Source: Nitrospira sp. (lineage in GTDB: Bacteria; Nitrospirota; Nitrospiria; Nitrospirales; Nitrospiraceae). Taken from it: a stretch of DNA of 37,727 nt. The notes beneath the pieces are model-generated. The model searched no databases. It saw only the letters and a program-made list of their open reading frames with translations, and was not told where the DNA came from. This document shows, one piece after another, positions 4,039 through 20,400 of the stretch (the first letter of the stretch is position 1; the number at the start of each line of letters is the position of its first letter). The stretch spans positions 307 to 38,033 of the forward strand of contig PLBR01000157.1 in NCBI GenBank assembly GCA_003135435.1. The letters are read 5' to 3'. Both the position numbers and the translations under genes were made by a program.

Positions 4039-4122
4039 GGTCGAATGTGCGAAGTGTACCGCATTTCGAGCCAACGAGTCTGCGTGGTATAGTACGCCTC
4101 CGTTATTTTTGTGAGGAGCATG

Positions 4123-5466
4123 ATGAAACAGATTCTCATGGTGGGAGCTGGATCAGTCGGTGGGTTCTTCGGCGCACATTTAGCGAAAGCGAATCCCGCT
4201 GTGTCTTTCCTGCTGCGGCCCAAGACGCTCGCAGCCGTGAAGCAGAATGGCCTCACGATCCGGAGTGCCCAGGGCTCCTTCACCGTGCATCCACCAGCCG
4301 CGTCCGATCCTCGAGATCTCCCGAAGCCTGACCTGATTATCCTCTCCGTGAAAGCCTACGATCTGGATGAGGTGATGAATCAAATAGAGCCGGTCCTGAC
4401 CGATCAAACTGTCATCTTGACCCTACAGAATGGGGTCGATACCGAAGACCGTATCGTGGCGCGGTTTCAACGGGATTGTGTCGTGGGTGGTATCGCCTTT
4501 ATCTATTCCAAAATCGCGGCACCCGGCGTCATCGACCATTACAAAAAGGGGGCTGTGGCGATCGGGGAGATGATGGGGCATCACAGCCCTCGTCTGCTGG
4601 CCATCGCGGATCTCTTCAAGCAGGCGGGGATTCCTTGTCAACTGACCGAGGATGTCCGGCGCAGCAAGTGGGAGAAGATGTGTTGGAATTGTGTCTTCAA
4701 TCCCTTGACCGTGATGATCGACGACAAAGTGGCCAAGGCGCTCGATCATCCCGAGATGCTGCGAGTGATTCATCAGATCGTAGGTGAAGTCGTGGCGGTG
4801 GCGGCTACCGTGAAGGTGCCGTTAGCCGCTGACATGGCAGAGAAGGTGGTCCGTTGGACGAGCGAGATTCGGGATATCCATACCTCGATGTATGATGATT
4901 GGAAGGCCGGTCGGCCGACCGAGATCGACTTTCTGAATGGGTATGTCGCGAAGGTCGGGCGGGAATTCGGCATTCCGACGCCGCTGAACGACATGCTGAC
5001 AGCCGTGATCAAGACCATCACTGGGTGGGATCGAACCGGTCCCGGCGTCGTGTGGATCGATGGGGCAGTGGTCCAGGCTGTCTCGTTTGATCGTGCTGCG
5101 ATCGCATCGTTGCCGGCAGAACATCAGCTCGATATTTCGACGGTGATGCCCGGCATGAAGGGTAAAGGGATTCGCGTGAAGGGTCTGCTCGATATTCCGG
5201 CGCTGGCCATCGGGGCGGATCATGTGACGATGCATTCGGGAGACGGCAACTATTCAGCTTGTCTCTCGTTGGAGCAAGCCAAGGCATTCGGGGTGTTGGT
5301 GTATGAGCTTGATGGAGAGCCGCTGCCGGAATCGAAAGGCGGGCCGTTTCGATTAGTCACCCCCGGGCTGGGAGATTTGTGCGCGAATGTGAAGGGGGTC
5401 GCGAGGATCGAGGTGACCATTGGAACCGGAACAGATACGCGCCTCTCGGTGAGGGCGAATTGCTAG
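4123..5466 (+). CDS. Ketopantoate reductase-like protein (ApbA/PanE) with an oxidoreductase-like C-terminal extension
   Basis: Residues 1-301 are a complete ApbA/PanE dehydrogenase: NADP-binding VGAGSVGGFFGAH, LSVKAYD, LTLQNGVD, the catalytic-Lys region SKWEKMCWNCVFNPLT, and the C-terminal EIDFLNGYVAKVGREFGIPTP-type helix. This family reduces 2-dehydropantoate in pantothenate synthesis. Residues about 303-447 are additional. The piece from 367 on (HSGDGNYSACLSLEQAKAF, then YELDGEPLP, GGPFRLVTPG and VARIEV) matches the second half of the sulfite-oxidase-type molybdopterin domain. The Mo-liganding Cys region is not visible. The ordinary enzyme is about 300 residues, so the 447-residue length reflects this fusion. 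GGAG at 4115-4118 selects ATG 4123 over ATG 4120 and GTG 4111. Whether it still makes pantoate is uncertain. Confidence 0.8.
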   Translation: MKQILMVGAGSVGGFFGAHLAKANPAVSFLLRPKTLAAVKQNGLTIRSAQGSFTVHPPAASDPRDLPKPDLIILSVKAYDLDEVMNQIEPVLTDQTVILTLQNGVDTEDRIVARFQRDCVVGGIAFIYSKIAAPGVIDHYKKGAVAIGEMMGHHSPRLLAIADLFKQAGIPCQLTEDVRRSKWEKMCWNCVFNPLTVMIDDKVAKALDHPEMLRVIHQIVGEVVAVAATVKVPLAADMAEKVVRWTSEIRDIHTSMYDDWKAGRPTEIDFLNGYVAKVGREFGIPTPLNDMLTAVIKTITGWDRTGPGVVWIDGAVVQAVSFDRAAIASLPAEHQLDISTVMPGMKGKGIRVKGLLDIPALAIGADHVTMHSGDGNYSACLSLEQAKAFGVLVYELDGEPLPESKGGPFRLVTPGLGDLCANVKGVARIEVTIGTGTDTRLSVRANC

Positions 5467-5672
5467 CCGCAATCGTTCGTGAAACGTTCGAATCTGGAAA
5501 CGAGCGACGCTTCACGCGCCACAGCCTGTGGCGCTGGCGCCGTATATCACGCCAATCCGGCTATGTGGATATCGTTGAGAAGTCTTTGAACCGACGCGAG
5601 AATCACAGAGGAATTAGCGGGCTGGTTTCGCGTAATATGCCGGTGAGTATGCTCAATAGTTAGCCAGAAGAG
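5467..5672. repeat. Gap with a degenerate copy of the dispersed repeat (palindrome at 5516-5534)
   Basis: The core at 5506-5540 contains GCGCCACAG C CTGTGGCGC, a perfect 9-bp stem, followed by TGGCGCC. It is a fragment of the same end sequence found near 8840, 33160 and 36045 (GCGCCACGG...CCGTGG.GCTGGCGGA). The only other notable sequence is GTTAGCC at 5659-5665, a near-match to the integron core site GTTRRRY just before the next gene. No RNA or protein gene is seen. Confidence 0.55.
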
Positions 5673-6365
5673 ATGACCGACACCTGTTTCGCGTGCCCGA
5701 GTCCTGCCACGACGCGTGAGCATGTTCCGCCTGCGTACCTCTTCCCCGAGCGCAAGGACACCGACGGTAGCCACGATTTTCGGCGAAACCTGATCACCGT
5801 GCCTGCCTGCGCGGATCACAACCTCGCTAAGTCCGGCGACGACGAGTACTTCTTCTGGGTCCTCAGCACCAATCTTCCGGCGAACGCCATTGCACGCATC
5901 CAAGTGTCCACGAAACTCGCACGCGCCCATCAGCGAAGACCCGCTCTTGGCCATTCGAGCCTCAGCAGCGGCGAGGAAGTCATCGTCATGGACAGCCAAG
6001 CGGGTACGAAACACGAAGTAGTCCAAGTGCCACTCGACGGCGCACGATTCCAGAAGGTGCTCGACCTGTTCGCGCTTGGACTATACCGGCACCACTTTGG
6101 CGAACGGTGGGTGGGCAGCATCCGTGTGCACCCAGACTTCATCGCTTTCGAGGGCGCCGAATCCCCAGCCGATATCGACGTCAACCGGCTCATCCTCCTT
6201 GATTGCGCAAAGAAGCTGTTCGCCAATGAACCGAAGCACGGCGAGAATCCTAGTGTGTTCTGGTATCAGGTACACGAGCCGAATGGCCCACTCCAATGTT
6301 TAATGAGATTTGTGTTCTATGATGGCTGCAGTGCGACCGCTTTCATCGGCGAGGGCTCTGGCTAA
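5673..6365 (+). CDS. HNH-like zinc-finger endonuclease-type protein (probable cassette gene)
   Basis: A 230-residue protein. The N-terminus has CFAC (CxxC), then TREHVPP and NLITVPACADHNLAKSGDDE. The EH-xPP and CxxHN-x2-K arrangement resembles the beta-beta-alpha metal fold of HNH nucleases, with cysteines for structural zinc. The remaining ~160 residues show no recognisable motif (VLDLFALGLYRHHFGERW, CLMRFVFYDGC). Such proteins are often found as accessory genes in defence or mobile regions; activity here is inference. The TAA stop at 6363-6365 lies in the left core site of an attC-like element, as in integron gene cassettes. There is no strong ribosome-binding site before ATG 5673. The gene is followed by a second small gene with the same kind of ending. 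Confidence 0.6.
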   Translation: MTDTCFACPSPATTREHVPPAYLFPERKDTDGSHDFRRNLITVPACADHNLAKSGDDEYFFWVLSTNLPANAIARIQVSTKLARAHQRRPALGHSSLSSGEEVIVMDSQAGTKHEVVQVPLDGARFQKVLDLFALGLYRHHFGERWVGSIRVHPDFIAFEGAESPADIDVNRLILLDCAKKLFANEPKHGENPSVFWYQVHEPNGPLQCLMRFVFYDGCSATAFIGEGSG

Positions 6366-6419
6366 CACACCGTTGCAACGGACGCCGATCGCGCGGCTCC
6401 GCTGAACGGCAGGTCGTGG
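6360..6419 (+). other. attC-like integron recombination site 1
   Basis: It starts with GGCTAAC, which contains the stop codon of the HNH-like gene. Two imperfectly complementary arms follow: 6370-6386 (CCGTTGCAACGGACGCC) and 6395-6409 (GGCTCCGCTGAACGG). They pair over 14 positions apart from one A.C mismatch, with extrahelical bases on one side only, the hallmark of folded attC bottom strands. The right core (GTCGTGG, 6413-6419) is a poor match to GTTRRRY, so the site may be degenerate. Confidence 0.6.
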
Positions 6420-6754
6420 ACCCCACGAGAGTTTATGACGCTCTACAAGAGGAAGAGTCGGTTCCAGCGGGCTCCCGACAGGCTTACTATTTGTCGATTG
6501 AAGAATGGCTCAAGTCGGTCGGGCATTACGAAAAAGTCTTGGAACTCCAGGGGACCGATAATCAGTTTTGCACAGAGTCGTTGATGTTATACAAGGCCGG
6601 ATGGGAGGCACGCGAGTCAGAGAAAGTTGTTGATGGTTTCGTGGCGGAGTGTGCACATAGATACAGGCAAAATCCGGAATATGGATTGATATTCATTCAA
6701 GTGCTGCGGGAAGGGCTATCTAAGCAGGCCAGATCAAGAGGTCAAAGTGGCTAG
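6416..6754 (+). CDS. Small protein of unknown function (probable cassette gene)
   Basis: A 112-residue frame from GTG 6416, which overlaps the right end of attC-like site 1, to TAG 6752-6754, which lies in the left core of site 2. The translation is acidic and helical (VYDALQEEESVP, SIEEWLKSVGHYEKVLEL, YRQNPEYGLIFIQVLREGLS), with no signal peptide, membrane segment or motif I recognise. No clear ribosome-binding site is present. In cassettes, translation often depends on the preceding context, and the true start could differ. The case for a gene rests on its length, sensible amino-acid composition and exact position between two attC-like sites. Confidence 0.45.
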   Translation: MDPTRVYDALQEEESVPAGSRQAYYLSIEEWLKSVGHYEKVLELQGTDNQFCTESLMLYKAGWEARESEKVVDGFVAECAHRYRQNPEYGLIFIQVLREGLSKQARSRGQSG

Positions 6755-6825
6755 CATCGCGCTTGAGTAGGCCGCGGCTTGCAAGGAGTTCCAATAACCA
6801 CGGCCACTCAGCGCCGGTGTTGGGC
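6749..6825 (+). other. attC-like integron recombination site 2
   Basis: The left core GGCTAGC contains the stop codon of the preceding small gene, and the right core GTTGGGC (6819-6825) matches GTTRRRY exactly. Arms 6759-6777 (GCGCTTGAGTAGGCCGCGG) and 6798-6814 (CCACGGCCACTCAGCGC) pair at 16 of 17 positions, with two unpaired bases on one side (T and A). The loop is about 20 bases. Overall length (77 bp), polarity and extrahelical bases fit an attC site well. Confidence 0.72.
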
Positions 6826-6828
6826 GGC

Positions 6829-6860
6829 AAAAAAAAGGGGCGTGCCGTCAGGCACGCCCC
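6829..6860 (-). terminator. Rho-independent terminator of the thioredoxin-fold gene
   Basis: Reading leftward there is GGGGCGTGCC, loop TGAC, GGCACGCCCC (perfect 10-bp stem), followed by eight T. It sits 32 bp past the stop of the leftward small redox gene and directly beside attC-like site 2. Confidence 0.92.
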
Positions 6861-6892
6861 CTGAGCTTGGGACTGTCAGTAGACTGAAACAG

Positions 6893-7132
6893 TTATTTCA
6901 ATGCGTCGATGCCGGCGCCAAAGTTAATATGAAACGCCGCTCCATTCATCACCAGCGCCGGAACCGACTTGACACCGGCTGCTTCCGCTTCTTTCACACG
7001 CGATTTGTTCGTGCCGAGATGGACGATTTCCACGGCATATTTTGACGGATCAAGGGCGTTGGCGACGCTGTGCTCGGCTGCGACGCACACTGGGCATCCC
7101 GCGTGGTAGAAAATCGCTTTGGTTTTCATCAT
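6893..7132 (-). CDS. Small thioredoxin/glutaredoxin-fold protein
   Basis: A 79-residue cytoplasmic protein with the redox motif CPVC after FYHAG, a charged middle segment, and the cis-proline motif SVPALVMNG, ending in FGAGIDALK. This is a minimal thioredoxin fold similar to glutaredoxin-like and NrdH-like proteins. The probable role is thiol-disulfide exchange or thiol sensing; the partner is unknown. GGGAG lies three bases before the first ATG (7132) and six before the second (7129), so translation may start at either. It is a single-gene unit with its own terminator, transcribed away from the repeat-rich gap at 7140-7460. Confidence 0.8.
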   Translation of the reverse strand: MMKTKAIFYHAGCPVCVAAEHSVANALDPSKYAVEIVHLGTNKSRVKEAEAAGVKSVPALVMNGAAFHINFGAGIDALK

Positions 7133-7249: not shown

Positions 7250-7460
7250 ACTTACTGAAAATGAACACAATAAAAAAACGTCGCCCTGGTGTGAGACACG
7301 GTCGGCGCGCGAAGTGCGAGACCAGGCCGGTTTCTCTTGTTCATTTGATCTGTTTGGTTTGTTTGGTTGAATGAGACTAACCAGAAGAACAAAATAAACC
7401 AGATGAACCAGATCAACCCGTTTCGTCCGTCCCGCCAGTCTCGCTTGGCTATCCTGCAGG
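7250..7460. repeat. Dispersed repeat copy with 9-nt-periodic hairpin
   Basis: This fills the gap between the thioredoxin-fold gene and the MATE gene. The left part (about 7285-7325) resembles the GTCACAGGCCGTGGCGCGAGAAGCGCGAG segment of the copy at 8830, in degenerate form. The middle is a hairpin: arm 7338-7368, core GGTTGAATGAGACTAACC (7365-7382), and an arm to about 7410 made of 9-nt units (CCAGAAGAA, CAAAATAAA, CCAGATGAA, CCAGATCAA). The right end (CCCGCCAGTCTCGCTTGGCTATCCTGCAGG) matches the right end of the copy at 8957. It stops exactly where the MATE coding region ends. Confidence 0.8.
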
Positions 7461-8786
7461 TTAGCGGATGATCTGAATCGCTTTCCACCGTTCCGATCGG
7501 TAGCGCAACAAGAGCAAGACCATTCGGACCGTCCAATCCGCAATCATCGCGCTCCACACGAAGAGGACATCGAGTGTGAGCCAGGGGCCTGCGATGACCG
7601 CGAGGGGCACGCGGACTCCCCACATGCCGATCGTTGTCGCCAACATGATGAACCGGGTGTCGCCGGCTCCACGTAACGATCCGGCCAGGACCATGGTGAG
7701 GGCGAGCGGTACTTGGAGGATGGCGACGATACGCAGGAACACCGTCCCGAGTTCGATGACCGCCTCATCATTGGTAAAGGCACGGAGCAGCGCATAGGGA
7801 AAGAAAAAGAACAGCACACCCATTGCGGCCATCGTCACGGTGGCCAGCCGGTTCGCCTCCCAGTTTTCCAATTTGGCCCGGACATATTTCCCCGCGCCGA
7901 TACTCTGTCCCACCATCGTGGCTGCCGCAATCGCGAAGCCATAGCCCGGTAGGAAGGACAGGGATTCGATCGACAAGCCGACTTGATGCGCGGCGTAGGT
8001 TACGGTTCCGTACAGCAACACGATTTTGGTATAGAGGATAATCCCCGCCTGCTGAAACATCCGCTCGCCGGAGACCGGTGCGCCGATCTGCCAGGCGGAG
8101 CGCAAGAGATCCCGTCGTAGGTTGAGTGATGTCCTAAAGAGATTTCGGCAGGCCCAGAGGAGATAGACCACCCCCGTTCCTTCAGCGAGACCGGTGGCCA
8201 CGGCTGCTCCGGTGACACCCCAGGCAGGGAAGCCCCAGAGTCCGTAGACCAGCGGGTAGGCGATCGTCAGATAGAGTAGGTTCACCGCGACCAAGGCGTA
8301 CATCGGAGTTTTGGTGTCTCCGGTGCCTTGCAGAATCGACGAGAGAACCTGTAGGAAGATTGTGCAGGGAATGACCAGGAAGATGAGGTTCGAGTAGGGA
8401 AGGGCCAGTGCGATGACGTCGTGCTCCGCGCCCAACAGCTCCATGGTGACACGATTCAGGGACAGTCCGAGTGCCACGAGGGAGCAGGACACGATGGCTG
8501 CCAATCCAAGGAGATGCGTGGCGGCTTCCCCAACGTCTTTGGTGCGGCGAGCGCCCCACAGCTGGGCAATGAGGACGTTTGCACCCACCGATAATCCGGA
8601 GACGAGCGTGGTGGCCATGAAGGCTAGCAACTGGCCAAGTCCGACGGCCGCAATGGATGTGGCGCCGAGACCACCGACAAGGAAGACGGCGGCGATGCCC
8701 TCGGTGCGTTGGAGCAGGCTGCTGACCGTGACTGGTAAGGCAAGGGTCAGGACGGACTTTCTGATCTGTGCAATGCGGGACACCAT
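7461..8786 (-). CDS. MATE family multidrug/sodium-type efflux transporter
   Basis: A 441-residue polytopic inner-membrane protein with about 12 hydrophobic segments in two similar halves, which is the MATE/NorM layout. The first half has LALPVTVSSLLQRTEGIAAVFLVGGLG and GLGQLLAFMATTLVSGLSVGANVLIAQLWGARR. The second half repeats the pattern with QVGLSIESLSFLPGYGFAIAAATMVGQSIGAGK. MATE proteins export cationic drugs or metabolites against Na+ or H+. The start is ATG 8786, with AGGA nine bases upstream. The gene stands alone between two direct copies of the dispersed repeat (7250-7460 and 8798-8957), so it could be lost or duplicated by recombination. The substrate is unknown. Confidence 0.92.
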   Translation of the reverse strand: MVSRIAQIRKSVLTLALPVTVSSLLQRTEGIAAVFLVGGLGATSIAAVGLGQLLAFMATTLVSGLSVGANVLIAQLWGARRTKDVGEAATHLLGLAAIVSCSLVALGLSLNRVTMELLGAEHDVIALALPYSNLIFLVIPCTIFLQVLSSILQGTGDTKTPMYALVAVNLLYLTIAYPLVYGLWGFPAWGVTGAAVATGLAEGTGVVYLLWACRNLFRTSLNLRRDLLRSAWQIGAPVSGERMFQQAGIILYTKIVLLYGTVTYAAHQVGLSIESLSFLPGYGFAIAAATMVGQSIGAGKYVRAKLENWEANRLATVTMAAMGVLFFFFPYALLRAFTNDEAVIELGTVFLRIVAILQVPLALTMVLAGSLRGAGDTRFIMLATTIGMWGVRVPLAVIAGPWLTLDVLFVWSAMIADWTVRMVLLLLRYRSERWKAIQIIR

Positions 8787-11106: not shown

Positions 11107-11121
11107 TAGGTCTAACCATTG

Positions 11122-14100
11122 ATGCCAAAGCCTCTGCCTCCGGCTAGTCACAGTCTCGCTGACCTCTTCGAGTTTTGTTGCCATCGAAAGCCGCAAGAAC
11201 TCGCCTATGCCTGTGTTCGCGACAACCTCGAACTTGAGAGTCAGCTGACTTATGGCGAGCTGGAACACACGGTGCGCTCACTTGCCGGCCATCTAGCACG
11301 CAGGGCTCGACCTGGAACGAGAGCCCTTCTCCTCTACCCACAGGGGCTCGATGTCGTCTGCGCGTTCTGGGCCTGTATGTGTGCCGGACTGGTGCCGGTT
11401 CCTGCTCCCGCTCCGGATCCCGTCAGGCGGAAGCACAGTCTGCCAAGGCTCCGCGCCATTATCGAGGATGCTCAGGTGTCGCTGGTGCTCACAACCTCTG
11501 GTATCGATGCCGTTTCTTCGGACCTTTCGGTCGCCAAGGATGGGAACCAGATCGAATGGATGGCCACCGATCAACCCTACGATCAAGCCGATACGGTCGA
11601 GTTGCCACGTCTCAATGAAACTGCCCTTGCCTATTTGCAATATACCTCAGGATCGACGGCCACTCCTCGTGGCGTCATGGTCAGCCATGGGAATGTGGTG
11701 TCTCATTGCAAGGCCTTGAGTCTGGCCGGAGGAGTGTCGGACCGTAGCCGGTCGCTCTGCTGGCTGCCATATTTCCATGACTATGGATTACTGCATGGAA
11801 TCATCGCCCCCTTCTATGCTGGTATCCCTGCCTATCTGATGTCACCCATCACGTTTCTCAGGCGACCGCTACGTTGGCTTGAAGCGGTGTCTCGATTTTC
11901 CATCACGCACAGCGGGGGACCAAATTTTTCCTACGAGTCTTGTCTTCGGGCTGCCCGGCAACAGCGTGAGTGGCAGGCTGACTTGAGTACGTGGACAGTT
12001 GCAAGTTGCGGCGCAGAACCCATCCATGCGGATACGGTTCAGCAGTTTATCGAAACCTTTGGACCTCAGGGTTTCCGGCGAACGTCGTTTGCGCCGGCGT
12101 ATGGACTCGCCGAAGCCACGCTGTTGGTGACGATGAAGAGGGCTGAGGCTGAGCCGACGTTCTTGAAGGTAGAGGCAGAGGCATTGGCTGACTCGATTGT
12201 CAAAGAGTCTTCCTCGTTAGAAAGAGGGACTCGGACATTGGTCGGATGCGGGGAGCCCCTCGAAGAGACTCGTGTACTGATTGTGAATCCTACGACCCAG
12301 AGCTCATGCCAGGCCGGTGTAGTGGGAGAAGTGTGGCTGGCCGGGGCTGGGATCGCCACCGGATACTGGGGGCGACCGGAGGAAAGTGACGCTACGTTTA
12401 AGGCTACCCTCGCTGGGTCAGGAGAGGGCCCCTATTTACGGACTGGAGATCTTGGATTCATTCATCGGGGAGAGCTGTTTCTGACCGGCCGGCTCAAGGA
12501 GCTGATCATTGTGCGGGGGCGGAACTATTATCCCCATGATTTGGAGTGGACGGCAGAGCAAGCGCATCCGGGATTGCGTCGAGGATGTGGAGCGGCCTTC
12601 TCGATTGAGAGCGAGTCCGGAGAGCGCGTGGTGCTGGTCTATGAGATTGAGAAGAAGTTGCCTGAATCAGACATGTCGGAGGTGATGAGCTGTATCCGTC
12701 GCGCGCTTGCTGACGAGTATGAACTGGAAGTCCACAATGTGGTGCTGGTCAAATCCGGAACGATTCCAAGAACGTCCAGCGGAAAAATTCAGCGGCACGC
12801 CTGTAGGGCGGACTTTGAGTCCGGACAGCTCGCCGTGGTTGGGACGAGTACGCTGGGGACGACCGAGGAGAATCAGAATGTTGAGCCGCTGAACGAGATT
12901 CCACGAACTCCGGTCGAGAATAGACTGCTTGATATCTGGCAGGAGGTGCTGGGAGGACCTCAGCCACGACGCCATGCGAACTTTTTCGCGCTCGGGGGCA
13001 ATTCTCTGCTTGCTGCACAGGTTGTAGCACGAATATTCGATGTGTTCCACGTCGAACTCCCTCTCAGTATTGTCTTTGAATATCCGACATTTTCTGCGCT
13101 GGCCACTCGTGTCAGTGAACTCAGCACCAGTAAGAATAAGACGGAGACTGCCGTGGAGGGGCTTGGATTCTCAGCCGGCGGCGGCGGGCTGCAGATTCCT
13201 CTCGTACCGCTTTCCCCGGTATCAAGACAAGGCAGGATGTCTCTCAGTTTCTCTCAGCAGCGACTCTGGTTCTTGGAGCAGGTTCATCCTGGCAGCTCGA
13301 TTAATCATATTTCCATGGGTGTACGTATACGGGGTCCTCTCAATCCAAAGAAGTTGGAGCGGTCGGTGCAGGAAATCATCCGTCGACACGAGGTTCTTCG
13401 AACCCGTTTCGGATCGGAGAGGGGCGAGGGATTCGCGGAAATATCCGGTGAGTCGGTCTTCACGATGGGACAGCATGATCTCCAGGCACTGAACCAGAGA
13501 GAGCAAGAAACAGAGGTCCGGCAGCTCCTACGAACGGAGGCCAGCCAACCGTTTGATCTCGGAAGGGGGCCGTTGTTCAGGGTCGCGTTGATGGCACTCG
13601 ACCAGGATCAGCATGTCCTGGCGCTGACATTCCATCGCCTCATAGCCGATGGGTGGTCTCTGCGTGTTTTCTGTAAAGAATTGGCTCTCCTTTACGAAGC
13701 CGGCGCTGAGGTTCGAAGGGCTCGACTATCCAATCTGGGCGTTCAGTATGTGGACTATGCGAAGTGGCAACGAACCAGGCTCAGTCAAGGCCTTCGTGAG
13801 GTACATCGAGAATACTGGATCGGACAGTTGAGCGGTGCACGCCCTCCCGTCGAGCTACCGGCTGACCGGCCGCGGCCGCGTATACGGACGTTTGAGGGAG
13901 GTGTGCGCTCACGGGCTCTCTCTCCCGGACTTGCGGCTGCCTTGGATATGTTCTGCCAACAGCATGGTGTGACCACGTTCATGGTGCTGTATGCGGTCTT
14001 TGTGACATGGCTGCATCGCTACACACAAGAGTCTGATGTCGTGGTCGGATCGGTAGTGGCCTGCAGGCGGCGCGTGGAGCTCGAGGATGTGATCGGGTAC

Positions 14101-17100
14101 TGTGTGAATACGGTGGCGTTGCGGTCTGAACTCTCGGACGGACTCACTGGGCAAGACTTGTTGAAACAGGTACGCCGTGTGGTGATAGATGCCTATGATC
14201 ATCAAGAACTGCCGTTTGAAGAGGTGATCGAGGCGCTGTCATTACGACGTGAGGGGATGCTTTCCCCGCTCTTCAACGTGATGATTGTGTGTGAAGACGA
14301 CCCCTTGGCCGCGTTCAAAATCAGAGATCTTGAGGCGACCCATCTTCCATGGGAGCCGACCGTGTCGGAGTTCGACTTGGTCTTGATGGTCGTGAACAAG
14401 GTTCAGGGCTTGGAACTGGCATTGCTCTACGATTCCACGATTTTTGACGAGTCGACCGTCAGTCGCATGTTGGGACAGCTCGAGACGCTCCTTGGGGAAT
14501 TCATCAAGAAACCTGAGTCCCGTCTTTGTGGACTATCATTACTCACGTCGGAAGAGCGTCGGCACATTCTCCTGGAATGGAACCAAACCAAAGTTCCGGT
14601 TTCGCTTTCTGCCGGTGTCCACGCTCTCATCGAGGCGCAGGTTGAGCGGACTCCCGACGCGATCGCCGTCATCTGTGGAGACGAATCCCTCAGCTACCAG
14701 GAGTTGAACCGACGTGCGAACCGAGTTGCCCGTGCCTTGCAAAAGTTAGGGGTATGCGCCGATCTGCCGGTGGGTCTCTGCGTTGAGCGCTCGGTGGACG
14801 GTATCGTGGGTCTCTTGGGTATTCTCAAGGCGGGGGGGGGCTATGTTCCCTTGGATCCGTCCTTTCCCGATCACCGCCTCCGGCTCATGCTGGATGATGC
14901 GCAGGTTTCTATCGTAGTGACGCAGGGGCACCTCCGCGGTCTTTTACACAGCTATGGCGGCTGGGTATGTGATGTGGAGACACTTTGTGATCCCACGGTG
15001 AGCGGAGGGGGTGAGAATCTCGCGACCCCCGTTCTCCCTGATCAGCTTGCCTATATCATGTACACTTCGGGGTCGACCGGGAGGCCCAAAGGTGTGGCAG
15101 TGACACACCGCAATCTGGTGATCTCTCTTAGTGCCAGACTTCTGTATTATCCGGAACAGGTGTCCCGGTTATTGCTGACCTTCTCTCTGGGCTTTGATGG
15201 ATCCGTGACGGGTATTTTCTGGACGTTGTTGCAAGGAGGGCAATTAGTCATTCCCTCTGAGGCCGCCCATCGCGATCCCACAGCGCTTGCTGCGCTCGTC
15301 GAGTATCACCATATCTCCCATGTTGTGTGGGTACCCTCTTTATACAATGCCGTGCTCGGTGAGGCGTTGAATACCCAGTTGGAATCACTTCGCGTCGTCA
15401 TTACCGCTGCCGAGAGTCTTTCACTTGAACTCGTCCGACGGCACTATCAGCTATTGCCTAATGCCACGCTGTACAACGAATATGGGCCGACGGAAGCCAC
15501 GGTCTGGTGTAGCGTGTATCAAACGACCCGCGAGGAAGCAGGGGCTCGAGTGCCGATCGGAAAACCGATCAACAATATGCAACTCTATGTGCTGGATGCG
15601 GACCTTGAGCCGCTTCCCATTGGCGTACCGGGGGAGCTGTATGTGGCGGGGGATTGTCTGGCTCGCGGATATGTGAACCAGCCGCAGTTGACCAAAGAGC
15701 GGTTTCTTGCGCGCCCCCACGTGGCTGGTGCCAGGCTGTATCGGACCGGCGACCGGGCTCGGTACCGCAAGGACGGCAATGTGGAGTTTCTTGGGCGGGT
15801 GGATCAGCAGGTCAAGCTGCGTGGGTATCGGATCGAATTGGGTGAAGTCGAATATGTGCTGAGTAACGCTCCAGGCGTGTATCAAGCTGCGGTTCTGCTT
15901 CGACAGGATAAGCCGGAGCAGCAACGGCTGGTGGGCTATGTGACCGGCCAGCCAGAGCTCAAAGCGATGCTCGATCAGGTGCGGAGTTATGCCGCGGCCA
16001 GATTACCACAATATATGGTGCCGTCCGTCATCCTGTGGGTGGAAGTCATGCCACTCACTGCGACAGGAAAAATCAATCGAAGTGCGCTTCCTGTTCCGGA
16101 AGAGACAACAGGCCAGGCGGCAACAAAGACTGCTCCAAGGAATCAGGTAGAAGAGGCGTTGGCCGAGCTTTGGAAGTCTGTTCTTGGTGTGCCAGAGGCT
16201 GGCATCCATGACAATTTCTTTGAGCGAGGAGGCCACTCCATTTTGGCCACACAGCTTGTCTCCCGGATGCGCGAAGTCTTTGATGTTGAAGTCTCGCTAC
16301 GGGTACTTTTTGAGCGACCGACTATCATGGGTTTGGCCGAAGAAGTGACGCGTTTGCGCCGTGGGGAGCGGAAGGCTTCAGAGATTCCGCCGATCGTTCG
16401 GGTGCCCCGAGACAAGCCCCTGCCCCTTTCCTATTCTCAGCAACGCATGTGGCTCATGTATCGGCTGGCTCCTGAAGGCACGGCGTATAACATGCCGTTT
16501 GCCTCGCGACAGATGGGTCCACTCAACAAATCGGCCCTTCGGCGTACGATTGACGCCATCTGTAGCCGTCATGAGGCGTTCAGGACGACCTTTGCGATGA
16601 CGGGTGAGGGACCGGTCCAAATCGTCAGCCCCTTCCGGCCTCCTCATTGGGTTGAAGTTGATCTCTCACAGCTGCCGAGCGAACAGCGATGGCGGGAGGC
16701 GGCCCGGCTGGTGGGGTATGAAGCGAACCAGCCGTTCGATCTTGAGAAGGGCCCCTTGGCAAAGTTCTTATTGATTGAGGTCGAGCCCGAGGATCATGTG
16801 CTGGTGCTCACGATGCACCATATCATCGGAGACCAGTGGTCGTTCGGGGTGATCGGGAGTGAGTTTGCGTTCTTCTACAACGCGTTCTGCCAAGGGGAGA
16901 CTCCTTCTGCCAAGCCGCTGCTCCTCCAGTATGCCGACTATGCGGTTTGGGAGCGGCATTGTCTCACCGATGATCGGCTCAGCACACAGTCGGATTATTG
17001 GCAGAAGAGTCTGGCAGGACTTTCCAGGCTCTCGTTGCCGACTGATTATCCCCGGCCCGTAATGCAAACGTTTAACGGTTCGCATTGTATGCTGGAGTTG

Positions 17101-20100
17101 CCGGCCTCGTTGCTCGAACGACTGAAGCAGTTCAGCGCGGAGCGAAACACGACCGTGTTCATGACCCTATTGGCCTGTTTCCAGATCCTCTTGAGTCGAC
17201 ATTCAGGCCAAAGTGATGTCGCCGTGGGCTCTCCTATTGCGAACCGGACTCAATCCGCGGTCGAATCGATCATCGGTTCGTTTGTCAATACGTTGGTGTT
17301 ACGCACTGATCTTTCCGGCAATCCGACGTTCGAAGAGATGCTTGAGCGGGTCCGCGAAACGGCGTTAGGAGCCTATGCCAATCAGGATTTCCCGTTCGAT
17401 AAGCTGGTGGAAACGATGCACTCAAGTCGCGACCATAGCTCTGCCCCGCTGGTGCAAGTGCTCTTCAATTTAGCGAATGCTCCCATCGGGGAGATCAATG
17501 TCCAGGGTTTGAGTTGGGTGCCATTTGAGGTGGAGACGGGAGCTGCACAGTTTGACTTAAGCCTGACGATTGAAACAGAGATTGCCCGCAAAGCCTACTT
17601 GACGTTCAACACCGATCTCTTTGAGCGTCAGACAGCCGAACGGATGTTGGGACAGTACAAAGTCCTGCTCCATAGCGCGTTGGCAAATCCCACAGCCAGG
17701 CTTTCTGAACTCTCACTGCTCACAGCACCCGAGCGTACCCAGCTGTTGCAGGACTGGAATCGAACCCAAGAAGACTACCCGCAGTTCGAATGTTTTCCTC
17801 AGATGTTTGAAGGACAAGTCGAAAGGACGCCTGATGCCGTCGCCTTGTCGATGGGGCAGGAGGCGTTACGCTACGGGGCTCTCAATGCCAGGGCCAATCA
17901 GCTGGCACGCTATCTCCGAACGCTTGATGTCCGGCCTGGCGTGGCGGTGGGTATTTGCCTCGAACGGTCATTGGAGATGGTCATCGCTTTGATGGCCGTT
18001 CTCAAAGCCGGCGGGGCCTATGTCCCTCTCGATCCTGAATATCCCCGCGACCGGCTTCGGTTTATGGCAGAGGATGCAGCCGTCGTGATCGTGCTCACGT
18101 CTGAAGGTCTTTCCGATCGATTTGATTCTCAAGCCTGTCGAATACTGTGTCTTGAACGGGAGCAGAAGAGGATTGCACAGGAGGTCGGCCATAATCTTCC
18201 ACCGACCGCGACATCTCAAGACTTGGCGTACATCCTCTACACCTCGGGATCGACCGGACAGCCGAAAGGAGTAGAAATCCCTCACTGGGCGCTTGTGAAC
18301 TTCTTGTGCTCGATGCGGCAGGAGCCGGGATGTTCTGCTCAGGATGTGATGGTATCCGTGACGACGCTGTCTTTCGATATCGCCGGGTTGGAGTTGTACG
18401 TGCCGTTGCTGGTGGGGGCCCGTGTAGAGATCGTCAGTCGAGCCGTTGCGATGGATGGATGGAAATTAAGGACACTCTGTGAGGCAGTGCAGCCGACAAT
18501 CATGCAAGCGACCCCTGCGACATGGCGAATATTAATTGAGGCCGGATGGTTGGGCAGCGACAGGCTGACGGTGCTCTGCGGAGGGGAGGCCCTTCCGCCG
18601 GACCTTGCGGCGGCACTGCTGGATCGTAGTGCCGCCTTGTGGAATATGTATGGTCCGACTGAAACCACAATTTGGTCCGCGATTGAGAGAATCGAACGGA
18701 CAGATCAGGAGATTACCATTGGCCGTCCGATTGCCAATACGGAAATGTATATCTTGGATCAGTTCCTCCAGCCGGTTCCCATTGGCGTCTCCGGGGAACT
18801 ATATATTGGGGGCCATGGTTTAGCCCGAGGATATCGTAGGCGCCCTGAGTTAACGAAGGAACGGTTCGTTCCCCATCCATTCTCGACAGATCCTCACGCG
18901 AGACTGTATCGAACAGGAGATCTGGTTCGCTATCGCCCAGATGGACGCATCGTGCATCTCGGTCGGTTGGATCAACAGGTCAAAATCAGAGGATTCAGGA
19001 TCGAATTGGGTGAGATTGAGGCGGTGCTGGGCCGCCATCCCGCTGTCCGTCAGGCGGTGGTGGCAGCACGGGAAGATCAGCAAGGTCTCAAACAGCTGGC
19101 GGCCTATTTGGTGTGTCAGCAGGGGCAAGTACCAAGCCCGACAGAACTTCGCTCATTTGTGCGAACGGCGCTTCCCGAATACATGACCCCTTCCTTCTTT
19201 GTGTTTATGGAGGCGATGCCCCTGACGGCCAATAACAAGGTCGACGTGCGGGCATTACCTGCTCCAGCCCCCTATCTCTCAGACGAGCTGGTTTACGTTG
19301 GGCCGCGCGATCGAATGGAAGTCCAACTGACGGCCTTGTGGCAGCAGGTGCTGGAAGTCCCAAAGATCGGGATCCATGACAACTTCTTCGATCTCGGTGG
19401 CCATTCCCTCAAGGCGGCCCAACTCTTTTTTCTTCTCGAGCAGGTGTATGGAAGGCACCTGCCGCTCGCCACGTTGTTTCAAGCGCCGACCATTGCAGAG
19501 CTAGCGTCGGTTCTTTCACGCGAACAGTGGGTGCCGCCATGGCAATCGCTGGTGGCGATTCAGCCGAGCGGGTCGGCGATCCCGATTTTCATGGTATCGG
19601 GAGTGGGAGGCAATGTCTTAATTTTTGCCCAGTTGGCGAGGTTGCTAGGCCCGAATCAGCCGTTCTATGGATTGCAGGCGCGAGGATTGGATGGGAAACA
19701 GGCGCCGTTTATCTCGGTGCCGGAGATGGCGAGGCATTACATCGCTGAGATCCGCGCACTTCGCCCACAAGGGCCGTACGTGCTTGTGGGCATTTGTACT
19801 GGTGGGCTGATCGCATATGAGATGGCTCAGCAATTATTCGGGCAGGGGGAAGCCGTCACCTTGGTCATGATGGATACCTGGCATCCGACTTCGTATCGCC
19901 CTCATCGTCATAGGTGGCCGATGAGACTTTGGTTGCCGCTATTTATTTTGTGGAAGACAATGGGAAATATTCACGTGCTCCTCCGGATGCCCATGAAAGA
20001 CTGGAGGCCTTTCGTCCAGCGCAAACGCGAGAGGCTCTTGTCCTTTTTAGGAAATAGAACCACTGAAGATGAACTTTTTGTTGAGTTTCAGGTCGAAAGA

Positions 20101-20400
20101 GTAATGCAATCGACGCGCATAGCGGTGGCCCGCTATGCAGTGCGCAAATATCATGGGCGCATTCTCAATATCGTTGCTTCGAAACGGAACGTGGCTGAGG
20201 CAGTGATAGATACCAGACATGTCTGGGCAGAGCTTGGTGGCGGAGGGAGTCAGACTGTGCCTATCGCTTCCGCTGATTCAGGTCTCCTCCTTACCTCACC
20301 ACATGTCGGAGAAGTGTCCGGGCATCTCCAGGCCTTCCTTGCCGTTGATGATCAAGATGAGACAGCCCGCCATCGCCGCGCTCCTGATATGAGTGCGTGA
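11122..20400 (+). CDS. Lipopeptide NRPS: FAAL-ACP-C-A-PCP-C-A-PCP-TE
   Basis: A 3092-residue assembly line. The domains are:
- FAAL, about 1-570 (YTSGSTATPRG; LPYFHDYGLLHGIIAP; SGGPNFSYESC), loading a fatty acid as acyl-AMP.
- Carrier 1 (GGNSLL, Ser628).
- C1, with HRLIADG at 838-844 instead of HHxxxDG.
- A1 (YTSGSTGRPKG near 1314; code by eye DGTWIAEVWK, 7 of 10 shared with the Tyr code DGTITAEVAK, unassigned).
- Carrier 2 (Ser1706).
- C2 (HHIIGDQ, 1899-1905).
- A2 (near 2373; code DILQLGMIWK, glycine-like).
- Carrier 3 (Ser2762).
- Thioesterase with GICTGG (Cys2892 as nucleophile), Asp2918 and His3061.
By collinearity the product is fatty acyl-X-Gly, linear or cyclised. There is no epimerase. 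The start is ATG 11122 (TTG 11119 adjacent). A nine-G run at 14832-14840 lies in A1. The exporter and PPTase follow in the same operon. Confidence 0.95.
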   Translation: MPKPLPPASHSLADLFEFCCHRKPQELAYACVRDNLELESQLTYGELEHTVRSLAGHLARRARPGTRALLLYPQGLDVVCAFWACMCAGLVPVPAPAPDPVRRKHSLPRLRAIIEDAQVSLVLTTSGIDAVSSDLSVAKDGNQIEWMATDQPYDQADTVELPRLNETALAYLQYTSGSTATPRGVMVSHGNVVSHCKALSLAGGVSDRSRSLCWLPYFHDYGLLHGIIAPFYAGIPAYLMSPITFLRRPLRWLEAVSRFSITHSGGPNFSYESCLRAARQQREWQADLSTWTVASCGAEPIHADTVQQFIETFGPQGFRRTSFAPAYGLAEATLLVTMKRAEAEPTFLKVEAEALADSIVKESSSLERGTRTLVGCGEPLEETRVLIVNPTTQSSCQAGVVGEVWLAGAGIATGYWGRPEESDATFKATLAGSGEGPYLRTGDLGFIHRGELFLTGRLKELIIVRGRNYYPHDLEWTAEQAHPGLRRGCGAAFSIESESGERVVLVYEIEKKLPESDMSEVMSCIRRALADEYELEVHNVVLVKSGTIPRTSSGKIQRHACRADFESGQLAVVGTSTLGTTEENQNVEPLNEIPRTPVENRLLDIWQEVLGGPQPRRHANFFALGGNSLLAAQVVARIFDVFHVELPLSIVFEYPTFSALATRVSELSTSKNKTETAVEGLGFSAGGGGLQIPLVPLSPVSRQGRMSLSFSQQRLWFLEQVHPGSSINHISMGVRIRGPLNPKKLERSVQEIIRRHEVLRTRFGSERGEGFAEISGESVFTMGQHDLQALNQREQETEVRQLLRTEASQPFDLGRGPLFRVALMALDQDQHVLALTFHRLIADGWSLRVFCKELALLYEAGAEVRRARLSNLGVQYVDYAKWQRTRLSQGLREVHREYWIGQLSGARPPVELPADRPRPRIRTFEGGVRSRALSPGLAAALDMFCQQHGVTTFMVLYAVFVTWLHRYTQESDVVVGSVVACRRRVELEDVIGYCVNTVALRSELSDGLTGQDLLKQVRRVVIDAYDHQELPFEEVIEALSLRREGMLSPLFNVMIVCEDDPLAAFKIRDLEATHLPWEPTVSEFDLVLMVVNKVQGLELALLYDSTIFDESTVSRMLGQLETLLGEFIKKPESRLCGLSLLTSEERRHILLEWNQTKVPVSLSAGVHALIEAQVERTPDAIAVICGDESLSYQELNRRANRVARALQKLGVCADLPVGLCVERSVDGIVGLLGILKAGGGYVPLDPSFPDHRLRLMLDDAQVSIVVTQGHLRGLLHSYGGWVCDVETLCDPTVSGGGENLATPVLPDQLAYIMYTSGSTGRPKGVAVTHRNLVISLSARLLYYPEQVSRLLLTFSLGFDGSVTGIFWTLLQGGQLVIPSEAAHRDPTALAALVEYHHISHVVWVPSLYNAVLGEALNTQLESLRVVITAAESLSLELVRRHYQLLPNATLYNEYGPTEATVWCSVYQTTREEAGARVPIGKPINNMQLYVLDADLEPLPIGVPGELYVAGDCLARGYVNQPQLTKERFLARPHVAGARLYRTGDRARYRKDGNVEFLGRVDQQVKLRGYRIELGEVEYVLSNAPGVYQAAVLLRQDKPEQQRLVGYVTGQPELKAMLDQVRSYAAARLPQYMVPSVILWVEVMPLTATGKINRSALPVPEETTGQAATKTAPRNQVEEALAELWKSVLGVPEAGIHDNFFERGGHSILATQLVSRMREVFDVEVSLRVLFERPTIMGLAEEVTRLRRGERKASEIPPIVRVPRDKPLPLSYSQQRMWLMYRLAPEGTAYNMPFASRQMGPLNKSALRRTIDAICSRHEAFRTTFAMTGEGPVQIVSPFRPPHWVEVDLSQLPSEQRWREAARLVGYEANQPFDLEKGPLAKFLLIEVEPEDHVLVLTMHHIIGDQWSFGVIGSEFAFFYNAFCQGETPSAKPLLLQYADYAVWERHCLTDDRLSTQSDYWQKSLAGLSRLSLPTDYPRPVMQTFNGSHCMLELPASLLERLKQFSAERNTTVFMTLLACFQILLSRHSGQSDVAVGSPIANRTQSAVESIIGSFVNTLVLRTDLSGNPTFEEMLERVRETALGAYANQDFPFDKLVETMHSSRDHSSAPLVQVLFNLANAPIGEINVQGLSWVPFEVETGAAQFDLSLTIETEIARKAYLTFNTDLFERQTAERMLGQYKVLLHSALANPTARLSELSLLTAPERTQLLQDWNRTQEDYPQFECFPQMFEGQVERTPDAVALSMGQEALRYGALNARANQLARYLRTLDVRPGVAVGICLERSLEMVIALMAVLKAGGAYVPLDPEYPRDRLRFMAEDAAVVIVLTSEGLSDRFDSQACRILCLEREQKRIAQEVGHNLPPTATSQDLAYILYTSGSTGQPKGVEIPHWALVNFLCSMRQEPGCSAQDVMVSVTTLSFDIAGLELYVPLLVGARVEIVSRAVAMDGWKLRTLCEAVQPTIMQATPATWRILIEAGWLGSDRLTVLCGGEALPPDLAAALLDRSAALWNMYGPTETTIWSAIERIERTDQEITIGRPIANTEMYILDQFLQPVPIGVSGELYIGGHGLARGYRRRPELTKERFVPHPFSTDPHARLYRTGDLVRYRPDGRIVHLGRLDQQVKIRGFRIELGEIEAVLGRHPAVRQAVVAAREDQQGLKQLAAYLVCQQGQVPSPTELRSFVRTALPEYMTPSFFVFMEAMPLTANNKVDVRALPAPAPYLSDELVYVGPRDRMEVQLTALWQQVLEVPKIGIHDNFFDLGGHSLKAAQLFFLLEQVYGRHLPLATLFQAPTIAELASVLSREQWVPPWQSLVAIQPSGSAIPIFMVSGVGGNVLIFAQLARLLGPNQPFYGLQARGLDGKQAPFISVPEMARHYIAEIRALRPQGPYVLVGICTGGLIAYEMAQQLFGQGEAVTLVMMDTWHPTSYRPHRHRWPMRLWLPLFILWKTMGNIHVLLRMPMKDWRPFVQRKRERLLSFLGNRTTEDELFVEFQVERVMQSTRIAVARYAVRKYHGRILNIVASKRNVAEAVIDTRHVWAELGGGGSQTVPIASADSGLLLTSPHVGEVSGHLQAFLAVDDQDETARHRRAPDMSA

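Follow-up and report, generated by a model that had tools for sequence, protein, structure and literature searches.

Gene organisation of the locus

The window, by which we mean the whole 37,727 bp stretch of Nitrospira DNA analysed here, contains two small genes on the plus strand that lie between a pair of flanking genes outside the integron. The left anchor (4111–5466, plus strand) encodes a PanE/ApbA ketopantoate reductase-like protein fused to a molybdopterin-oxidoreductase-like domain (Pfam ApbA, 6e-39; ApbA_C, 2e-34; Oxidored_molyb, 4e-12), an orthologue of which anchors this position in the majority of the genus's species, and the right anchor (7461–8786, minus strand) encodes a MATE efflux protein (Pfam MatE, 6.5e-59). 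Between these anchors, an attI-type site of ~95 bp (5567–5665, plus strand) is followed on the same strand by the coding sequence of a 230-residue HNH-like protein (5673–6365), the site attC1 (6360–6422), the coding sequence of a 112-residue orphan with no recognisable family (6416–6754) and the site attC2 (6749–6825). The first gene cassette occupies 5660–6416 (plus strand), from the G/TT of attI (the slash marks the crossover) to the point within the R′ of attC1 where the crossover is presumed, as placed by the core sites and the covariance-model alignment. To the right of attC2, a 3′ junction and terminator (6826–6864, minus strand; stem at 6835–6862, located by terminator scan) belong to a flanking gene for a thioredoxin-like protein (6893–7129, minus strand; 78 residues with a CPVC motif), which occurs only where this chromosomal spot is occupied now or was formerly.

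Two other features of the window were noted. A short sequence rich in TGGTT/CCAGA at 7304–7430 is matched at many places in the genomes of the genus and is apparently a dispersed intergenic repeat, and an open reading frame of 3093 codons (11119–20400) possibly encodes a very large surface or repeat protein.

Two attC sites coincide with the stop codons of the small genes

The first-pass annotation, which was made from the sequence alone, stated that both genes end inside a GGCTARC core and that the second site closes with a perfect GTTGGGC core. The sequence reads as claimed: the TAA of the first ORF sits within GGCTAAC (6360–6366), the TAG of the second within GGCTAGC (6749–6755), GTTGGGC occupies 6819–6825, and a further core, GTTAGCC, is present at 5659–5665. 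In attC2, the R″ GGCTAGC and the R′ GTTGGGC enclose paired arms with extrahelical bases on one side, and the bottom strand (6749–6825) is predicted to fold in the manner of attC sites, into one extended hairpin whose bulges are all on one side (−20.2 kcal/mol, z −3.3, equalled by 2 of 200 shuffled sequences). The site attC1 combines an R″ GGCTAAC and a stem with one-sided bulges with a degenerate R′, GTGGACC, that does not conform to GTTRRRY, and its fold is weaker (−15.6, z −1.9, equalled by 9 of 200 shuffles). The foldable arms with one-sided extrahelical bases described in the annotation were recovered at both sites, less strongly at the first.

A strict search for RYYYAAC...GTTRRRY pairs returned nothing near 5659–6825, because both R″ sites are off consensus, and covariance models were therefore used. 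An Rfam search of the window and the region found no attC family at the gathering score and nothing useful at a relaxed threshold. Our models were built from attC sites of intI-bearing Nitrospirota integrons, leaving plasmid class 1 attC sites out of the training: R1 was trained on 23 such sites, R2 is the realigned version of R1, and the final training rows of R3 contain no sequence from the genus of the window. Since R1, which served as the seed alignment of R3, did include some sites from the genus, and since the E-values are rough owing to a shortened calibration, rank and position were weighed above E-values. Before realignment the model was too rigid, and R1 placed both sites near background (attC2 at merely 12.3 bits, with an E-value of 8 over 446 kb, and attC1 at 6.9 bits). 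R2, run over 6 kb, scored attC2 at 23.8 bits (E 2e-4) and attC1 at 19.2 bits (E 0.0023), with the next match at 6.6 bits. When the whole 37.7 kb was searched with R3 and the filters off, the same sites were the top two matches (attC2, 21.3 bits, E 0.007; attC1, 15.1 bits, E 0.16), followed by a third at 10.1 bits. The two best matches in the window thus fall exactly on the stop codons that end the small ORFs. Both R2 and R3 ranked first and second precisely the attC sites proposed behind these genes, and neither site was rejected by this search, which had been set beforehand as a possible refutation.

The best control is provided by the orthologous attC sites of two relatives, which lie against the same terminator at the same place and are unmistakable (L146, 6353–6424, 42.7 bits; L153, 2920–2979, 44.9 bits; both with R3). 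In the window, attC2 is convincing as an attC site. attC1 is a degenerate attC that has the right 5′ arm and spacing and a damaged R′; alone it is non-significant with R3, so it is borderline and would fail if judged by itself. It is probably dead, because its R′ has GTG in place of GTT; the G/TT is lost there and intact at attI and attC2. The two units have the make-up of gene cassettes, with one small ORF and one attC each, the same orientation and ends at G/TT. Clusters of at least two attC sites define a CALIN, and such a cluster is formed here by 6360–6422, the borderline site, and 6749–6825.

The 5′ boundary belongs to a family of attI-type sites

Integrons are best known from proteobacteria and, to our knowledge, attI has hardly been described outside class 1. 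The GTTAGCC boundary at 5659 had at first been taken for an attC; it proved to be the end of an attI-type site that belongs to a 95-bp family (nhmmer, 95 bits), with the G/TT crossover falling at 5659/5660. A profile grown from 5561–5665 of the window detected 29 copies of this ~95-bp element among the loci examined (nhmmer). Its terminal motif, CTCAATA/GTTAGCC (5652–5665), recurs with variants between intI and the first cassette in four genomes (G190, G416, G377 and G020), and also adjoins a cassette in G285. Relatives have homologues of the site on the 3′ side of intI, whether this is intact, broken or residual, and at loci L018, L167 and L096 homologues follow intI or its remnants. On contig C59 of the genome from which the window derives, an IntI C-terminal fragment (L018, 5481–5591), 84% identical to the IntI tail of G285, precedes a copy of the element at 5628–5717, and the same order of IntI C-terminal coding remnant and attI copy is seen in G023 (L167). 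In G202, an attI core lies 147 bp 3′ of an IntI half-gene, while the copy in G285 is 1.5 kb from an intact intI, with an apparent transposase gene between them. The core pattern occurs 8 times in the window's own genome, 50 times in the genus (21 of 32 genomes) and in 58 of the 147 genomes of the family, whereas a reversed-pattern control gave 0 in every genome. Some copies have no attC nearby, and several cores are degraded.

The attI of the window is 91% identical to that of G014, compared with 71% at fourfold sites of the neighbouring gene. Constraint, gene conversion and recent dispersal are all possible reasons, and conserved copies are in addition favoured by detection bias. A search for a Pc promoter gave one promoter-like match (5575–5603) against 0.9 expected by chance. 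It is by homology and position that 5567–5665 qualifies as the attI of a complete integron, and these suggest that it functions as one. Because the 5′ boundary is an attI-type site, the locus reads attI-cassette-attC-cassette-attC without intI, and points to an integron that lost intI and not just to a stray attC cluster.

Copies of the element are also found in tandem. On the minus strand of a G014 contig (C255; L168, 2536–3341), three attI-like copies ~356 bp apart are separated by an identical ORF for an 81-residue putative lipoprotein, a relative of which follows an attI copy in the window's own genome (L018, 5749–5981). The latter locus (C59, 4000–15000) contains five attI-like copies along with a TIR-domain-like ORF and three pieces of coding sequence for the IntI C-terminus.

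Empty and filled states of the chromosomal spot

The orthologous spot was located in the genus via its flanking genes. The interval between the ApbA-like and MATE genes is a hotspot, being empty in five relatives and filled with other cargo in at least nine. In the empty state, the ApbA-like and MATE matches are separated by 12 bp in G008 and G018 and by ~25 bp in G012, G016 and G021, and these five relatives have neither the thioredoxin-like gene nor a cassette. The filled spot of G014 contains an attI homologue, three attC sites and other genes, among which a HicB-like gene was recognised by reading of the sequence (no Pfam match). Other cargo accompanied by attI homologues includes a Crp-like regulator (G020), Mrr (G009), GmrSD with HNH (G001) and a Gp49/HTH toxin-antitoxin pair (G004). 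Neither cassette protein of the window is present at the orthologous locus in 60 relatives, in which the spot is empty or holds other genes; the comparison with relatives proposed in the first-pass annotation therefore shows that these genes are not conserved vertically.

The 3′ junction is especially informative. Its series of GTTGGGC (or a close variant), a stretch of A, the terminator and the gene for the thioredoxin-like protein stays constant, and the sequence joined to it on the left differs. In the window, G014, G020, G029 and others this left partner is of attC type; in C59 and G023 it is attI itself, and the site there reads CTCAATA/GTTGGRC and is empty. When the left part of the window through CTCAATA is joined to its right part from GTTGGGC, the result is the empty site seen in C59 and G023. 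Judged from sequence, these filled and empty junctions carry the signature that recombination by IntI predicts for exchange at G/TT. In C59 (L018), the empty attI adjoins another copy of the thioredoxin-like gene, likewise equipped with this terminator. The thioredoxin-like gene is duplicated together with the integron 3′ junction, with two copies in G020 and two, in the window and C59, in the window's own genome; it may represent the ancestral 3′ end of the integron.

Integrase remnants and further integron pieces

The earlier description of a cassette array without an integrase holds for the whole genome, since no protein exceeded the TIGR02249 integron-integrase cut-off anywhere in the assembly. 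No IntI fragment was found within the window, and the intI traces of this genome are C-terminal fragments on C126, C59 and C242. As the assembly comprises 254 contigs, an intI could lie on an unassembled contig. The locus is without the intI gene of a complete integron and, like a CALIN, has no adjoining integrase. Across the genus, a full IntI is kept in 2 of 32 species (G017 and G020), and in the Nitrospirota loci inspected transcription of intI runs in the direction of attI and the cassettes, so that the arrays lie 3′ of intI.

Besides the two in the window, at least 14 attC sites are present in its genome, each of at least 29 bits (best E-value 1.6e-7), which were strong again with R3. Units of attI, ORF and attC in a single orientation are present on C247, C15 and C104 (two cassettes), and on C184 with a weaker attC. 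A decayed integron was also observed at C126, 32921–35688 (L017, 5922–8689), where two pseudogene pieces of the IntI C-terminus are accompanied by three attC sites.

Cassette cargo

The product of the first cassette contains the motif CxxC...EHVPP...C..HN, and had been described as an HNH-like protein that fits a defence-type cargo. The first part of this description found support in its relatives. The protein itself has no Pfam match, while 7 of 27 relatives match Pfam HNH_5 (best 4e-6). In an alignment of seven sequences, C5, C8, H17, P19, P20, C46, N50 and D57 are invariant, and among the 27 relatives no substitution occurs at C8, H17 or C46, while C5 and N50 are conserved in at least 90%, so the conserved cysteines and histidine of an HNH/treble-clef motif are in place. 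A search with the fold, which is predicted with confidence (pLDDT 87), returned no PDB match at E ≤ 0.001. Coiled-coil proteins were the sole matches of the profile search and were judged spurious. We regard the protein as a probable HNH-like nuclease, with nuclease activity predicted from these motifs. Several relatives match the PADLOC candidate-defence model PDC-M01B and the window protein matches PDC-M03A at 0.007; the designation defence-type is thus a tentative one given by profile similarity.

A copy 50% identical to the first cassette protein is encoded on C36 of the same genome, and by eye an attC-like sequence (GGGTAACC...GTTAGGC) can be recognised behind it. This protein family travels as a cassette, since attC-flanked relatives are found in Nitrospira sp. 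RCB (L179), a deltaproteobacterium (L207), Hydrogenophilus (L202) and Oceanimonas (L213). The second cassette protein has no Pfam or PADLOC match, and no relative across 60 related genomes, plasmids and viral contigs. Together with the Mrr, GmrSD and toxin-antitoxin genes of other species, the HNH-like cargo suggests that spots of this type store defence-type genes.

History of the locus

We consider it highly probable that the locus is a decayed sedentary chromosomal integron, which has kept attI (5567–5665) and two cassettes (5660–6819), has lost its integrase gene and is now frozen. According to this model, a recombinase of the IntI family would have docked single-stranded attC cassettes into the double-stranded attI at G/TT, and the integrase would have been lost afterwards, leaving the C-terminal scraps of intI that persist elsewhere in the genome. 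Past catalysis by IntI, this order of events and the present inactivity of the array are what we infer from the homology of the sites, the hotspot, its filled and empty junctions and the lack of a full IntI. The cassettes would now be static, and their genes, if expressed at all, would depend on promoters located upstream or internally. Because attI and attC2 alone keep intact GTT cores, only the two-cassette block as a whole (attI x attC2) could be mobilised by an IntI acting in trans.

Other origins of the array were weighed against this model. Inheritance of two ordinary genes with chance palindromes behind them could appeal to attC1, which alone is non-significant, but the top two covariance-model matches in the window fall on the two stop codons; this origin, to which we give virtually no weight, was rejected on the absence of both genes at the locus in 60 relatives and the conservation of the 3′ junction with strong attC sites. 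An integrase encoded elsewhere might have put the cassettes into a non-integron secondary site of the attG type, the 5′ sequence being a target that merely resembles attI. The window indeed lacks intI and its remnants, and in Xanthomonas CALINs far from the integron platform are common (PMC12444791). Against this, homology between the 5′ sequence and the site next to intI spans 95 bp, far more than a GTT target, and both this site and the 3′ junction are common to many species, so that insertion at a secondary site has scant probability. We hold it to be very unlikely that the 95-bp element is a dispersed repeat, MITE- or REP-like, that is independent of IntI and near intI by chance, with the attC sites forming a simple CALIN alongside. 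It is numerous (8 copies in the genome, 50 matches in the genus), some copies have no attC nearby, and L168 has three tandem copies with a duplicated 81-residue ORF; yet the copies end at GTT, precisely where cassettes begin, several are followed by an ORF on the same strand and an attC, IntI C-terminal coding remnants precede them in L018 and L167, and inverted ends were not noticed on an unsystematic look.

The array might instead belong to a distributed integron that is still active, in which the many scattered attI sites depend in trans on a single IntI that is present in certain strains or brought in by mobile DNA. The retention of a full IntI in 2 of 32 species, the higher identity of attI to that of G014 (91%) than of fourfold sites in the neighbouring gene (71%) and the many attI-ORF-attC units per genome speak for such a system, but gene conversion among copies could also account for the identity, no full IntI was found in the window's own genome, and the R′ of attC1 and several attI cores are degraded. 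Moreover, IntI1 assays have shown that a gene between two attI sites (attI1-aadB-attI1) is excised at ~100% (PMC12901181). Tandem attI-ORF units such as those of G014 C255 are therefore expected only where no integrase is active, and argue for frozen relics. Continued activity is accordingly unlikely in our assessment. More broadly, and as a doubtful proposal, Nitrospira of this family may have multiplied attI sites at several chromosomal positions, each with a short cassette set of its own and served now or until recently by one trans-acting integrase, some of the units having attI and not attC at both ends. If the distributed reading were true, the locus in the window would be a single platform among several, rather than what is left of one lone integron.

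Relation to known integrons

The frozen integron proposed here has counterparts in the literature. CALINs as defined by IntegronFinder share with the window at least two attC sites, small genes on one strand and no nearby integrase, but the window keeps an attI-type site at its 5′ end and has one degenerate attC, and IntegronFinder seeks attI in class 1 only (PMC9024848). Two CALINs have already been reported in Candidatus Nitrospira inopinata (PMC9024848). The first-pass reading of the locus as a CALIN was therefore apt as to an attC cluster without an integrase, and overlooked that the 5′ site is of attI type, that the spot is a hotspot and that the genome has many other copies. The ancestral integron at ilvD in Xanthomonas likewise has a site fixed in the genus, a decayed or lost integrase, variable cassettes and additional CALINs; here, in contrast, intI has gone from almost all species, there are several attI loci per genome, and arrays are mostly short (PMC12444791). 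In the Treponema integron, as in the Nitrospirota integrons we inspected, intI points towards attI and the cassettes, and attC sites persist after the loss of intI, but Treponema belongs to another phylum and is described as having one attI per integron, whereas attI copies are multiplied here (PMC3607928). Genes bounded by attI-like sites and not by attC, which we observed in C59, L146 and L168, recall the Delta-attI-type cassettes of class 1 and 2 mobile integrons, although those are clinical, mobile and associated with an active integrase, while the present ones are chromosomal, in tandem and without integrase (PMC12901181).

CALINs in Nitrospira and ancestral integrons with a decayed intI are thus already known, and it is the multiplied attI sites that are unusual in this system. 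Our search of the openly accessible literature found no paper on integrons of comammox Nitrospira beyond the two N. inopinata CALINs, and no record of a recognisable attI family that is multicopy in genomes throughout a bacterial family and has matched empty and filled sites. The attI family described here is recognisable by homology, and its matched empty and filled sites in species of a single genus define the crossover with single-base precision. A chromosomal integron can thereby be traced from its active state to its death in a nitrifier lineage of environmental importance, and the multiplication of attI and the turnover of cassettes at sites lacking an integrase become testable. In the wider phylum, IntI was matched at 1e-60 in 92 of 396 Nitrospirota genomes (loci L036–L065), a frequency far above what the literature consulted suggests.
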